This document shows, one piece after another, positions 1,863-7,396 of a stretch of 63,445 bases of DNA. The notes beneath the pieces are model-generated. The model worked only from the letters and a program-made list of their open reading frames with translations. It had not been told where the DNA came from and did not search any database. Each line of letters starts with the position of its first letter. Positions within the stretch are counted from its first letter, which is position 1. The stretch lies in assembly GCA_029246865.1 (NCBI GenBank), contig JAQWMI010000006.1, positions 1 through 63,445 of the forward strand, in the 5' to 3' direction. The DNA is from Alphaproteobacteria bacterium (GTDB taxonomy: Bacteria > Pseudomonadota > Alphaproteobacteria > HIMB59). Position numbers and translations under genes: made by a program.

Positions 1863-2503
1863 ACAATATTTTACAGACACAAAAAATCAATAAATCCTAT
1901 GTATCACCAGTTGAAACATTAACAGTTTTTAAAGATTTAGACTTTAATCTTCAAAAGGGTAAGAGTTTATTTCTTTTTGGTCCATCAGGTTGCGGTAAGT
2001 CAACTTTTCTTAATATGATAACTGGTTTAGATGAGCCTGATAGTGGTAAAGTTTTAATAAATAATAAAAGTTTGAATATTTCTAATTCATCAAATTTTCT
2101 TAAGAGTGATATTGGAATTATATTCCAAGATCATTACCTATTAAATGAGTTAAATATTAAAGACAACCTAATGTTAAAATCAGAAAAAGAAGAACAATTA
2201 GATTTTTTATTAAATTTCTTAGATATTAAAGATATTAAATTAAAATATCCCTTTCAAATATCTAATGGACAAAAGCAAAGAGTTTGCGTAGCGAGATCCT
2301 TGATGAACAAACCCCAATTAATTATTGCAGATGAACCAACCTCATATCTTGATAAGGTTAACTCAGATAAAGTTATAGAATTACTTATTAATTACACAAA
2401 ACAATTCAATACATCTCTTGTAGTTTCTTCTCATGATATTTCCTATAAAAACCTATTCGATTTTTCATATACTATTAAAGACATGAAGCTTATTAAATGT
2501 TGA
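1859..2503 (+). CDS. lolD: lipoprotein-releasing ABC transporter ATPase
   Basis: ATPase subunit that powers LolC in moving lipoproteins off the inner membrane. Visible motifs: Walker A GPSGCGKST (about residues 41-49), Q-loop IIFQDHYLL, a signature region ISNGQKQRVCVARSL (first residues vary from LSGGQ), Walker B LIIADEPTSYLD and the switch histidine in VVSSHD. At 214 residues it is slightly short for LolD. It is translationally coupled to lolC through a 4-base ATGA overlap and to dnaE by a 7-base overlap. Function follows from family plus neighbour; the broader MacB-type ATPase family is the alternative. Confidence 0.9.
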   Translation: MNNILQTQKINKSYVSPVETLTVFKDLDFNLQKGKSLFLFGPSGCGKSTFLNMITGLDEPDSGKVLINNKSLNISNSSNFLKSDIGIIFQDHYLLNELNIKDNLMLKSEKEEQLDFLLNFLDIKDIKLKYPFQISNGQKQRVCVARSLMNKPQLIIADEPTSYLDKVNSDKVIELLINYTKQFNTSLVVSSHDISYKNLFDFSYTIKDMKLIKC

Positions 2504-5500
2504 TACCTCTTAGAAACTATTCTCATTATTCTATTTGTGAGTCAAATATTAAAATTGACGATTTAATTCTTCATGCTGTAGAAAACAAAATCCCGGCAAT
2601 TTCATTGACAGATTATAGACTTTTATCTGGCGCTTTAGAATTCTCTATGAAGGCTTCAAAAAAAGGGATACAGCCAATTATTGGTCTTGATATTGATTAT
2701 ATCGATAACTTAAATAGAACTTCGCGCCTAACATTTTTATGTAAAAATCTAGATGGATACTCTAATTTGTGTAAGTTATCGACAGAATTTAATACCAATC
2801 CTGAATTTAAATTAAATATTTCTAACATTAATAATTATGCTAATGGTTTAATCTTAATCTGTGGCGGACTATACAGTATTTTTGATAATCTAGTTTTTGA
2901 TAATAAATATTTTAACGTACTCAAATCTGAATTAATAGAATTAAAAATGTTTTTTCAAGACGATTTATTTTTTGAGTATGACAGCAACTTAGATAACACT
3001 TATCTTGCAAAATTATCAAATGATTTAAAAATCTCATGTTTTGCTAGCTCTTTTACTTTTTATAAAAATCAAAAAGACTTTGGTGGGATTGAAATTTTAA
3101 ACTGTTTGAAAAATGGTAAATACAAACAAAATTCTATTTTTAATATAGATAATAATTATTTTTTAAGAGATCATAATTACAAAGGTATGAGTGATCATCT
3201 TGTGGTTAATTCAGTTAAAATTCAAAATAAAATAAATTTTTTTCTTGAAGCAGAAGATCCAATTTTACCTGATTACAGCGATGAGGATGATTTTGATGAA
3301 ATTAAAGAACTTATCAAGCAAGCACGGTCTGGTTTAGATTTAAGACTTTCAAAAAAATTTAGTGCACTTTCCATTGAAGAGTTTAATAAAGTTGCTCAAA
3401 TATACCGAGACAGAAATGAATATGAACTAAATGTTATCAACAATATGAAATACTCTGGTTATTTCTTAATAGTATCTGATTTTATACAGTGGGCCAAATC
3501 TAATGATATTCCTGTAGGCCCTGGAAGAGGTTCGGGAGCTGGATCTATTGTAGCATGGGCCTTAATGATAACAGATATCGATCCTATTCAGTTTGGCTTG
3601 TTGTTTGAAAGATTTTTAAATCCAGATAGAGTTTCCTTACCTGATTTTGATATTGATTTTTGTAAAAGTAGACGCGAAGAAGTTGTTAATTATGTTAAGG
3701 AAAAATATGGTAATGAGAATGTTGCTCAAATTATCACTTTTGGATCTATGATTTCTAGGGGTATTTTAAGAGATGTTGGTAGAATTGAAGGTATGCCTTA
3801 TGGAGAAGTGGATAGAATGGTAAATAAAATTCCTTATAATCCCACACAGCCATTAACAATTTCAGAATTAAAAGAAAACCATTCTGACCAATTGGGAGAT
3901 TTACTTGACTCTCCTTTGCTTTTGAAGGCTGAGTCAATGGAAGGCGCTTTAAGAAATGTTGGAACACATGCTGCAGGTGTCATTATTTCTACGAAATCTT
4001 TGTATGGAAATATTCCTTTATTTAAAGATGAGGGCTCCAATTTTATGTCAACACAATTTAGAGACAAGGATTGTGAGAAAGCAGGTTTAATTAAATTTGA
4101 TTTTTTAGGTTTAGCCAATTTGACAATTATAGACGATACAATTAAATATATAAAAAAAACTCAATCAATTGAAGTTGATTTAGAAAATATAAATTTTGCT
4201 GACGATAAATCATTTGCCTTATTAGGAACGGGGAAAACTCGTGGAGTATTTCAAGTTGAAAGCCCTGGCATGATTGACACGCTTATAAAACTGAGACCAT
4301 CAAATTTAGAGGAAGTTATTGCTGTTATTGCTCTATACAGACCTGGTCCTATGGAGTTGATTGATAGTTTTATTAAAAGAAAAAAAGGGGAAGAAGAAAT
4401 TATATACGACCATCCATTATTGGAGCCAATTTTAAAAGAAACCTTTGGTATTATTGTTTATCAAGAGCAAATTATGAAAATTGCTCAGGTAATAGCTGGA
4501 TATTCATTAGGAGAGGCTGATTTACTAAGAAGAGCAATTGGAAAAAAAATTAAGAGCGAACTTATGAGTTTGAAAGAAAGTTTTATAAAAGGAGCTTCAA
4601 AAAAATCTATTAATATAAAAGATTCTGAAAAACTTTTTTCCTTAATTGAAAAATTTGCCGATTATGGATTTAATAAAAGTCACGCCGCAGCTTACGCTGT
4701 TATAACTTTTTATACTGCTTATTTAAAAGCTCACTTCCCATTAGAGTTTTACTGTCAACTTTTGAATAACAGCTCCAACGATACAGATAAAATATTTTCA
4801 ATAATGAATGAAATATCTTTGATGAAAATTGAAATACTTCCACCAGATATAAACACTTCACACTATAAGTTTATAATAAAAGATAATAAAATTATGTATT
4901 CACTATCTGCCGTAAAAGGAGTTGGCATTGAGTCTATGAAGGAATTAGTATTAGAGAGAAATACTAATGGATTATTTAAATCTATTTCAGATTTTAATAG
5001 GAGGCTTTCTCAATCAGTATTAAATAAAAAACAAATTGAAAAATTAATTTTATCTAATGCATTTAGTTCTTTATATTCAAATAAAAATATTTTGATGGCA
5101 AATTTAGAAGAGATTCTTAAAAAAATGGATGCAAATTCTCTCTTTGAAAATGACATAAGTGACGAATATTTTTTAAATAAAAATATCTCAATTGAACTTG
5201 ACGATATTAAGTCTGAATTTGAAAGTTATGGTTTCTTGTTTTCTACAAGAAAACAAACAGATCTTCTATCTAAAATAAATAATAGTAATTTTGCTGAATT
5301 AATTTTAGCTAAAGTAGAGTTCAAAAAATCTTTTTATTTTTATGTCATCAAGGTTCAATATAAAACTACAAGAAATGGTAAAAGGTATATCTTGTTAACA
5401 GTAATAAATGAATCTGGCAAATTTGATTTGAGATTATTTGATGATGATGTTGATGCTAGTTCTTTTCAGGCAAATTTTGTCAAAATAGGTATTAAATCAT

Positions 5501-5682
5501 CAAATAAAGACGATTTTTATAATCAAAATATTACTGATATCTTAGTTTTTAGTGAAAGTGCTCTACTTGCTAAAATTACCAATTTTACATACAAAGATAT
5601 GTTAGATTTGAACTTAGAAAAAAAAGACTCAGATTACACTATTAAGGGAAATAATGGATTAATTAAGATTTCATTGCATTAA
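2497..5682 (+). CDS. dnaE: DNA polymerase III subunit alpha
   Basis: Replicative polymerase. The N-terminal PHP domain begins LRNYSHYS; the metal-binding histidines of active PHP domains are not conserved, so proofreading by PHP is unlikely. The C-family polymerase core follows: GPGRGSGAGSIVAWAL, then the catalytic aspartates D383 and D385 in PDFDIDF and D535 in KFDFLGL. Next are IALYRPGPMELIDSFI, GIIVYQEQIM and FNKSHAAAYA, a helix-hairpin-helix region and a C-terminal OB-like segment near residues 975-1020. At 1061 residues it is about 100 shorter than the E. coli protein, mainly at the C-terminus. It shares a 7-base overlap with lolD and ends the first operon. Confidence 0.97.
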   Translation: MLIPLRNYSHYSICESNIKIDDLILHAVENKIPAISLTDYRLLSGALEFSMKASKKGIQPIIGLDIDYIDNLNRTSRLTFLCKNLDGYSNLCKLSTEFNTNPEFKLNISNINNYANGLILICGGLYSIFDNLVFDNKYFNVLKSELIELKMFFQDDLFFEYDSNLDNTYLAKLSNDLKISCFASSFTFYKNQKDFGGIEILNCLKNGKYKQNSIFNIDNNYFLRDHNYKGMSDHLVVNSVKIQNKINFFLEAEDPILPDYSDEDDFDEIKELIKQARSGLDLRLSKKFSALSIEEFNKVAQIYRDRNEYELNVINNMKYSGYFLIVSDFIQWAKSNDIPVGPGRGSGAGSIVAWALMITDIDPIQFGLLFERFLNPDRVSLPDFDIDFCKSRREEVVNYVKEKYGNENVAQIITFGSMISRGILRDVGRIEGMPYGEVDRMVNKIPYNPTQPLTISELKENHSDQLGDLLDSPLLLKAESMEGALRNVGTHAAGVIISTKSLYGNIPLFKDEGSNFMSTQFRDKDCEKAGLIKFDFLGLANLTIIDDTIKYIKKTQSIEVDLENINFADDKSFALLGTGKTRGVFQVESPGMIDTLIKLRPSNLEEVIAVIALYRPGPMELIDSFIKRKKGEEEIIYDHPLLEPILKETFGIIVYQEQIMKIAQVIAGYSLGEADLLRRAIGKKIKSELMSLKESFIKGASKKSINIKDSEKLFSLIEKFADYGFNKSHAAAYAVITFYTAYLKAHFPLEFYCQLLNNSSNDTDKIFSIMNEISLMKIEILPPDINTSHYKFIIKDNKIMYSLSAVKGVGIESMKELVLERNTNGLFKSISDFNRRLSQSVLNKKQIEKLILSNAFSSLYSNKNILMANLEEILKKMDANSLFENDISDEYFLNKNISIELDDIKSEFESYGFLFSTRKQTDLLSKINNSNFAELILAKVEFKKSFYFYVIKVQYKTTRNGKRYILLTVINESGKFDLRLFDDDVDASSFQANFVKIGIKSSNKDDFYNQNITDILVFSESALLAKITNFTYKDMLDLNLEKKDSDYTIKGNNGLIKISLH

Positions 5683-5730
5683 TAGCTTGTATTTTCTTTA
5701 TATTGTATTAAAAAAATAAAAAAAAACAAA

Positions 5731-5780
5731 CTAGTGCCACTTCGGTGTTTTCGTAGCATTAGTTGAAGTAAAACCGGAGG
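5731..5780 (+). promoter_or_regulatory. structured rpsB leader: hairpin plus pseudoknot over the ribosome binding site
   Basis: In the 105-base gap before rpsB, CTAGTGC (5731-5737) pairs with GCATTAG (5756-5762) in a 7-bp stem with one G-T pair. The loop holds CTTCGGT (5740-5746), which pairs with ACCGGAG (5773-5779), covering most of the strong Shine-Dalgarno GGAGG (5776-5780). Together these form an H-type pseudoknot. A small competing CAC-TTCG-GTG hairpin (5738-5747) would free the site. The pairings are read directly from sequence. Feedback by S2 is inferred from the known S2-controlled rpsB leader of E. coli. Confidence 0.65.
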
Positions 5781-5787
5781 ACTATAA

Positions 5788-6528
5788 ATGAATATTGAAA
5801 TTACACTCGAAGACCTATTAAAAAATGGTTCACATTTTGGCCATAATAAAAAACGTTGGAACCCTAAAATGGGTAAGTTTATTTACGGAGAAAAAAATGG
5901 TACTCATATCCTTGATTTAAGGAAATCTTTACCTCTTTTAGAAAATTCTATCAAATTTGCTTTTGAAAGTGCAAAACAAAATAAAAAATTTCTTTTTGTA
6001 TCTACAAAAAAGCAGCACTCTGACATAGTTAAGACTATAGCTGAAGAAACTAATAATTTTTATGTTAACTTTAGATGGTTAGGTGGGATGCTAACTAACT
6101 GGAACACAGTTAAAAAATCTATTAACACGCTTAAAGAATATGAATCTACTCTCTCATCTGAAGAAAATCTTTTCACAAAAAAAGAATTAGGTGATATTGA
6201 GAAAAAGAAAATTCGTCTCGATAAAACGTTAGGCGGTATTTTAGAAATGAAAAATACACCTGATGTAATTTTTATAATCGATACTAATAAAGAGCATATT
6301 GCAGTTCTTGAGGCAAAAAAATTAGGCATTCCTATTATAGCCATCATTGATACTAATTGTGATCCTGATCCTATTGATTACCCAATACCCGCTAATGATG
6401 ATGGTGTAAAGTCTGTTCAGTTTATTTTAGATAATTTTTCAAAAGTTATTAAATTATCATCTGAAAAAATTGAAACACCTTCTGAAAAAGAAAGTACTGA
6501 AAATGAGAGTGTTGAAAAAAATGTCTAG
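5788..6528 (+). CDS. rpsB: 30S ribosomal protein S2
   Basis: Small-subunit ribosomal protein. The N-terminus [24 protein letters not shown] and later motifs [47 protein letters not shown] are diagnostic. The 246-residue length is normal, with a Ser/Glu-rich tail (about residues 230-246). The ATG sits 7 bases after a GGAGG, unusually strong for this AT-rich region, and after a structured leader. It overlaps tsf by 8 bases. The rpsB-tsf pairing is universal in proteobacteria and implies shared regulation of S2 and EF-Ts. Confidence 0.98.
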
Positions 6529-7396
6529 TATGGAACTTATAAAAAAATTAAGAGACTCTACAGGAAGTGGTATACTTGATTGTAAAAAGGCTTTATCTGA
6601 AAATAATGATGATCTCGAGTCCGCTGTAAAATGGTTAAGGGAGAAGGGTATTCTTAAAGCACAAAAAAAACAAGATAGAGAAACTAAAGAAGGTTTAATT
6701 GCTTTTTATTTTTGTAGCACCTCTAATGACTTCACAGTTTGTAAGATTTCATGTGAAACTGATTTTGTAGCTAAAAATGAGGATTTTCTTTCTTTTGCAA
6801 ATTTAATTACAAACACTATTCATGATAATAGTGAGCCTGATAAAATTTCCAGAGGAGCATTTGAGGACATTAAAACATTAAAACATAATTCAAAATCAAT
6901 TGAGGAAATCTTAACTGACACGATTTCAAAAATTGGTGAAAATATTCAAATCGAGAGTTTTACCTCATATAAATCAACTGAATATGTATATCTTACTTAT
7001 TTACATAACAAATATTCTGATACAGCTTCTAAGATTGGAAGCATTATTGGTGTTAAGTCCGATCATGATCTTAGTGAAGAAGTTAAATCAGAATTAAAAA
7101 TACTTCCTATGCAAGTTTCTGCTATGAAACCAATGGCGATAGATAAAGAATCCTTAGACCCTAAAGTTCTTGATGACGAAACAGATATAATTAAGAAACA
7201 ACTAGGTGAAGTGAATCCTGATAAAATAGATCAAATTATAACTGGTAAACTAAGCAAGTTTATAAAAGAAAATACCCTTTTAGATCAGTCATTAATTTCT
7301 GACCCTAAGATGACCGTTAGCAAATTACTTGAAGACCTATCTTCAAAAAATGATATTTCTTTAAAAATTATGCTTATGGACCTTTATTCTATATAG
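6521..7396 (+). CDS. tsf: translation elongation factor Ts
   Basis: Guanine-nucleotide exchange factor for EF-Tu. The N-terminal UBA-like domain [24 protein letters not shown] is typical. It is followed by the core, with [16 protein letters not shown] (the TDFV motif that contacts EF-Tu) and the C-terminal [21 protein letters not shown] use the ATG at 6521 because it puts the protein at normal family length (291 residues). A longer frame from 6470 would add 17 basic residues inside rpsB, and a second ATG at 6530 is also possible. It overlaps rpsB by 8 bases and lies 9 bases before pyrH. Confidence 0.96.

Follow-up and report, generated by a model that had tools for sequence, protein, structure and literature searches.

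A compact pseudoknot overlapping the Shine-Dalgarno sequence of rpsB in a divergent alphaproteobacterial member of the published rpsB motif

Results

The DNA analysed here (the window) is a stretch of 63,445 nucleotides from an alphaproteobacterium of the HIMB59 lineage (assembly GCA_029246865.1, contig JAQWMI010000006.1). It carries, in this order, dnaE, rpsB, tsf, an amino-acid-kinase-family gene that from its context we take to be pyrH, and frr, and the gap between dnaE and rpsB holds the leader that is the subject of this work. The features of the locus and the basis on which each was assigned are as follows.

2497..5682, forward strand: dnaE (DNA polymerase III alpha), the gene 5' of the leader; Pfam DNA_pol3_alpha 1.5e-87 and PHP 1.2e-25
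5683..5787, forward strand: dnaE-rpsB gap with the leader, 105 nt; sequence
5729..5737, forward strand: 5' arm of P1; base pairing and covariation in 36 leaders
5756..5764, forward strand: 3' arm of P1; base pairing and covariation in 36 leaders
5740..5746, forward strand: 5' strand of the pseudoknot, CUUCGGU (J2-3 of the published motif); pairing and alignment
5773..5779, forward strand: 3' strand of the pseudoknot, ACCGGAG, overlapping the Shine-Dalgarno sequence; pairing, alignment and overlap count
5765..5772, forward strand: loop GAAG-UAA-A connecting P1 to the pseudoknot 3' strand; alignment (GAGG-N3-A at this place in other bacteria)
5776..5780, forward strand: Shine-Dalgarno sequence (SD) GGAGG, 7 nt 5' of the ATG; sequence
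5738..5747, forward strand: weak TTCG-capped hairpin of 3 bp, found in 3 of 36 genomes; energy and alignment
5732..5784, forward strand: alternative non-knotted fold (minimum-energy fold without pseudoknots), in which the SD is also hidden; folding
5788..6528, forward strand: rpsB (ribosomal protein uS2), ATG at 5788-5790; PF00318, E 2.4e-83
6530..7396, forward strand: tsf (elongation factor Ts), directly 3' of the rpsB stop, with a putative start codon; PF00889, 1e-43

The core of P1 pairs CTAGTGC (5731-5737) with GCATTAG (5756-5762) over 7 bp, one of them G-U (5734/5759), and two further pairs, A5730-U5763 and A5729-U5764, bring the full stem to 9 bp. From the P1 loop, CTTCGGT (5740-5746) pairs with ACCGGAG (5773-5779) over 7 bp, with one U-G (5742/5777), in an H-type pseudoknot whose 3' strand holds most of the SD. 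Both nested pairings lie where the first-pass annotation had drawn them, 5' of an rpsB gene that Pfam confirms. A consensus sigma-70 promoter or terminator was looked for between 5560 and 5800, and none was found.

Taken singly, the leader sequence does not prove this fold, because dinucleotide shuffling of the 105-nt leader yields an H-type pseudoknot of equal or better quality 57 times in 1000, and the forward strand of the window, cut into 604 tiles, has one in 44 of them. Single-sequence significance was accordingly ruled out as proof of the pseudoknot, and the folding energy of the leader is ordinary (z of -0.92 and -0.16 in two computations). At the level of sequence comparison, it is the comparative data that establish the fold.

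These data begin with 36 leaders, the window included, from the family of the window (f1, a single genus by database labels); a further record, L073, was taken to be the same as that of L064, and f1 counts therefore use 36 rather than 37. When P1, the pseudoknot and a 2-bp P3 are imposed on the alignment of these leaders, 97.7% of cells pair. The covariation score of the whole structure is 0.235, compared to 0.132 +/- 0.009 after shuffling, with none of 500 shuffles reaching 0.235, and to 0.025-0.090 when the structure is slid along the alignment. Loss of either stem in close relatives, which would have spoken against the annotated fold, was looked for in the same leaders: P1 is paired in 96.9% of cells, and every one of the 36 leaders has the pseudoknot, in the same register and with 100% of cells paired. 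Compensatory changes had been anticipated for both stems. Within the genus they occur in P1, where 8 of 10 pairs change on both sides, but not in the pseudoknot, in which four of six pairs are invariant and two change on one side. Being nearly invariant in the genus, the pseudoknot owes its covariation to more distant relatives, as described below.

The 5' strand of the pseudoknot reads UCCGGU in 33 of the 36 leaders, and is replaced by UUCGGU in a subtype that consists of the window, L048 and L065 and that has no P3. P3 amounts to 2 bp in most congeners, and neither P2 nor P3 is evident in the window. GAAG or AAAG stands in place of the GAGG block, and loop nucleotides are conserved beyond the needs of pairing, namely a G after CGGU and a purine block before AACCGG.

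Because the 36 leaders were retrieved as upstream regions of rpsB, their position before this gene is true by construction, and genome-wide scanning with R1, a covariance model built from them, serves as the independent test of that position. R1 gives a single clear match in the genome of the window, which is the leader (63 bits). A second match in the same genome (20.6 bits, E 0.1) was dismissed as chance; it sits inside a coding frame, a 333-codon ORF that runs off either end of the stretch examined. Across the order sample of 150 genomes, R1 yields one match per genome (E<=0.001) in 37 of the 52 f1 genomes; the other 15 are exactly the 15 in which S2 was not matched either, as incomplete assemblies would lead one to expect. 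R1 also matches seven of the 98 other genomes of the order (1e-5 to 6e-4), and the four of these that were checked are all at rpsB. In one genome, the S2 frame (G038:C3:10446-11171) is broken by many stops, likely draft-genome errors, yet its leader scores 79 bits with R1.

Relatives beyond the genus were collected with a simple finder (P1, a purine block, 2-4 bases, an A and the pseudoknot; threshold 15). Scores of at least 15 were obtained for all 35 leaders of the sister family (f2), for 117 of the 130 loci of a class sample, for 35 of 71 named loci (those giving a start, Actinobacteria among them; 8 of 282 loci overall have no usable start) and for 14 of 274 shuffled controls. Within f1 the finder missed L045, which pairs by alignment. 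S2 was matched in 191 genomes, three of which belong to the window's own order (G000, G029 and G052); the 130 loci of the class sample were drawn from these, largely from among the best S2 scores. The near-complete pairing seen in 101 of the 130 class loci is circular, since the loci were chosen by a pairing-based finder.

We therefore relied on a test free of this circularity, in which the pseudoknot 3' strand is taken by position alone and whose anchor was passed by 216 of 274 loci. Where the strand is ACCGG, an exact complement turns up within that locus's P1 loop in 181 of 184 cases. Among loci with another strand it is present in 18 of 32, or in 26 of 32 with G-U allowed, a count that retains some evidently misplaced anchors (actinobacterial loci among them). 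In the control, a complement is found in the loops of loci with a different strand in 284 of 6830 cases (4.2%), and the usual CCGGU is present in five of the 32 variant loops. Natural swaps of the two strands include CUGGU/ACCAG, CCAGU/ACUGG, GUUAGUU/AACUAAC (Rickettsia), CUGUU/AACAG (Clostridia) and GGGGU/ACCCC (E. coli). The pseudoknot thus covaries across Alphaproteobacteria, E. coli, Clostridia and Rickettsia, which supplies over wider taxa the compensatory changes that it lacks within the genus, and on these alignments and swaps we take it as real across the rpsB-leader family.

Six Rickettsia rpsB leaders (L089, L090, L094, L095, L096 and L098) share a P1 of CGUAAGAU / AUCUUACG (AUUUUACG in L090), a GAGG block and the rewritten pseudoknot GUUAGUU/AACUAAC. 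Two of them carry extra sequence. In L089 (1300-1490) it is placed inside the P1 loop, and in L094 (1260-1490) it separates the pseudoknot 3' strand from the GAGG block and is flanked by a palindrome-like repeat; we presume that these insertions are possibly rickettsial palindromic elements. A scan of 184 class genomes, a sample that may contain no Rickettsia, found no leader of the Rickettsia type. As the rpsB motif is stated to be missing from most Rickettsiaceae (PMC2704228), the six leaders look like overlooked members.

The overlap of pseudoknot and SD was counted with an SD called by its match and by a spacing of 4-12 nt to the start, a definition under which 12 of 119 class leaders have no SD. 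The five-base core of the pseudoknot 3' strand overlaps the SD in 35 of 36 f1 leaders, in 34 of 35 f2 leaders and in 13 of 119 other leaders of the class, 11 of the 130 class loci being excluded because they had no pseudoknot strand or a strand too far from the start. As these rows are kin, a Fisher test on them gives no fair estimate of probability. The median distance from the end of the core to the start is 7 nt in f1, 8 nt in f2 and 18 nt elsewhere in the class. A call without the spacing limit, now superseded, picks in f2 the GGAGG block after P1 and thereby reduces the overlap to 2 of 35. The words 'Shine' and 'sequest' are absent from the main text of PMC2704228, and the titles and abstract openings among the matches listed for the literature on rpsB leaders contain no report of SD overlap in the window's order. 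In Clostridia (L117, L122 and L139), the pseudoknot CUUCCUGUU/AACAGGAGG extends over the entire SD; this being a distant phylum, the clostridial overlap probably arose separately.

The leader corresponds to an element already in the literature. Meyer et al. 2009 described an 'rpsB motif' in 'Cand. Pelagibacter ubique', located in a dnaE-rpsB gap, the same gene order as in the window (PMC2704228). The motif is reported there to consist of P1, of P2 and P3 stems that vary, and of an extension after P1 that forms a pseudoknot with J2-3, to occur in most Alphaproteobacteria and beyond, and to have very short P2 and P3 in streamlined Pelagibacter; its cis-regulation with S2 is discussed (PMC2704228). 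The 2009 paper already contained the motif with its pseudoknot and linked it to S2, and the discovery made here is modest.

We take Rfam RF01815 ('rpsB') to be the motif of Meyer et al. In the comparison with Rfam suggested by the first-pass annotation, RF01815 gives no match around the window's leader at E<=10. At E<=0.1 this model matches 17 of 20 class leaders, eight of which exceed the 40-bit cut-off, and 129 of 192 class genomes, 52 of them over the cut-off (positions checked in part); the only match in G166 lies off the contig bearing its S2, and G000, G029 and G052 have no match at this threshold. None of six f1 leaders is matched, whereas three of six f2 leaders are, in the right place and with 18-20 bits (E 1.5-4). 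In sets of eight f1 and three f2 loci that partly overlap these sixes, no match was found at E<=1. Among 14 control genomes, RF01815 matches Caulobacter only; as E. coli gives no match, the link between the window and the E. coli leader rests on anatomy. RF00127 (t44) scores the E. coli leader at 83.5 bits, and matches neither the window nor any of 11 relatives. By their anatomy RF01815 and RF00127, both typed as sRNA genes, look like one rpsB leader.

By anatomy and position, the window's leader is a divergent, stripped member of the rpsB motif, although it fails the RF01815 score and the possible intermediates, the f2 leaders and the R1 matches elsewhere in the order, tie it but weakly to recognised members. 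The missing P2 and P3 are no bar to membership, since the authors of the motif are reported to allow for their absence (PMC2704228). These scores suggest that RF01815 misses the window's order, which would make the rpsB family wider than annotated.

The first-pass annotation had also described a TTCG-capped hairpin competing with the pseudoknot in a bistable leader. The hairpin is indeed present (5738-5740 with 5745-5747, 3 bp), but its energy is -0.6 kcal/mol alone, and in the modelled fold it weakens P1, which reaches -5.6 kcal/mol with the hairpin versus -7.4 without it. It occurs in three of 36 f1 leaders, those of the window, L048 and L065 (one pair being G-U in L065). As a bistable switch it was rejected on its energy and on its absence from the other 33 leaders.

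Without pseudoknots, the window's leader folds best into a structure that retains UUCGGU:ACCGGA and has 5732-5735/5781-5784 and 5737-5738/5779-5780 in place of P1; among four structures compared (L001, L048, L065 and L036), this exact fold is found in L001 only. Without the knot, too, the window's SD is for the most part base-paired, its probability of being unpaired across the non-knotted ensemble being 0.09 at 37 C. For 12 leaders, a rough energy balance drawn up without a pseudoknot energy model puts the break-even pseudoknot penalty at 37 C at 6.9 kcal/mol for the window, 4.5 for L048 and 7.4 for L065, and 8.2-11.9 kcal/mol for nine congeners without the TTCG sequence. At 20 C the values are 8.3, 6.9 and 8.1 kcal/mol, respectively, and 7.8-14.2 for the nine others, and the gap that sets off the TTCG subtype is no longer clean, L055 falling below the window. 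By this rough balance, the window's knot would beat the non-knotted ensemble at 37 C only if the pseudoknot penalty were below 6.9 kcal/mol.

Discussion

The RNA fold, its conservation, its position and its overlap with the SD are all supported by the analyses above. We consider it probable that the leader is the 5' operator of rpsB-tsf, a minimal and divergent rpsB motif in which S2, probably together with S1, would stabilise the knot over the SD. We infer that the leader RNA is made in this form, and take S2 as its likely ligand, and repression as the likely direction of the effect, by analogy with the family. In such an operator, P1 would form first, and its loop would then pair with the segment just 3' of P1 (UUCGGU/ACCGGA), which is here also part of the SD. 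If S2 outnumbers the 30S subunits, the protein (in E. coli, with S1) would bind and stabilise the knot, the SD would be occluded and less product would be made from rpsB and the downstream tsf. Once S2 is consumed by assembly, a 30S subunit could open the short knot and translation would go on.

S2, together with S1, reportedly represses the rpsB-tsf operon of E. coli (PMC10931766). The earlier suggestion that the fold senses S2 is a fair one by analogy, because in anatomy and position it matches the rpsB motif already described, and the leader of E. coli is reported to respond to S2. The proposal is tempered, however, by the report that the RBS lies outside the S2 operator of E. coli, for which reason the mechanism of that operator is called unclear (PMC10931766). 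A small deletion removing a conserved bulge far 5' of the RBS is also reported to be able to abolish control in E. coli (PMC10931766), and no counterpart of this bulge is seen in P1 of the window. The description of the compact fold as alphaproteobacterial does not stand, for it is not specific to that class, being found also in E. coli and Clostridia, and the motif had been published.

The same RNA might instead work in another mode, with its core as the S2/S1 site and the knot trapping or stalling the 30S subunit, the SD overlap being a by-product of shortened leaders. The core lies off any recognised SD in 106 of 119 other alphaproteobacterial leaders (12 of 119 being without an SD), at a median of 18 nt before the start, which makes SD occlusion unlikely as a general mechanism, in agreement with the E. 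coli report (PMC10931766). In the window's order, however, nearly every leader has the overlap (69 of 71), so that occlusion would follow whenever the knot forms, and we regard trapping or stalling as unlikely there, while giving it some weight. We tentatively raise the possibility, short of favouring it, that the operator of this streamlined, marine order moved onto the SD, so that one strand would be both operator and RBS and S2 would act by direct occlusion, unlike in E. coli, with Clostridia having merged the two separately.

A constitutive element, whose knot would not sense S2 and would serve only to adjust rpsB translation or to shield the 5' end of the mRNA, would accord with a short knot of ordinary fold energy, but appears distinctly improbable given the likeness to leaders with reported S2 control and the loop nucleotides kept beyond pairing need. 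A thermodynamic bistable switch, with the TTCG hairpin and the pseudoknot as its two states, deserves hardly any credence: the hairpin letters are present and kept in three genomes, against a stability of -0.6 kcal/mol, a destabilising effect inside P1 and absence from 33 of 36 leaders. Least probable of all is a small-metabolite riboswitch of the SAM-II/SAM-V type. The overall architecture speaks for it, these riboswitches being reported as pseudoknots near start codons too (PMC2704228), but no Rfam riboswitch matches the window at the gathering cut-off or the surroundings of the leader at E<=10, and the element sits on rpsB rather than on methionine genes. With the S2-responsive operator as the preferred reading, a minimal natural leader whose pseudoknot and SD share nucleotides offers a simple construct for asking whether the knot is a switch.

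Pseudoknots at the RBS occur in other ribosomal protein leaders, those of S4 on the E. coli alpha operon and of S15 on rpsO; these involve other proteins and other folds, and no homology is claimed. The Pelagibacter rpsB motif shares with the window its place before rpsB in the dnaE-rpsB gap, a long P1 and a J2-3 knotted with the 3' extension, as far as it is described in PMC2704228. Compared by its published description, the motif (RF01815) differs from the window's leader, in which P2 and P3 are not evident, GAAG or AAAG replaces GAGG, the pseudoknot contains a U-G pair and its 3' strand is merged with the SD. The E. coli leader (RF00127 t44, L072) presents the same elements in the same order, with a P1 of CACGUAUC/GAUACGUG, GAGG-CAU-A and the pseudoknot GGGGU/ACCCC, but has larger stem-loops and a pseudoknot 5' of a separate SD. 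In the clostridial leaders (L117, L122 and L139), P1, GAGG-N3-A and a pseudoknot that includes the SD recur as in the window, although in different letters and in a distant phylum.
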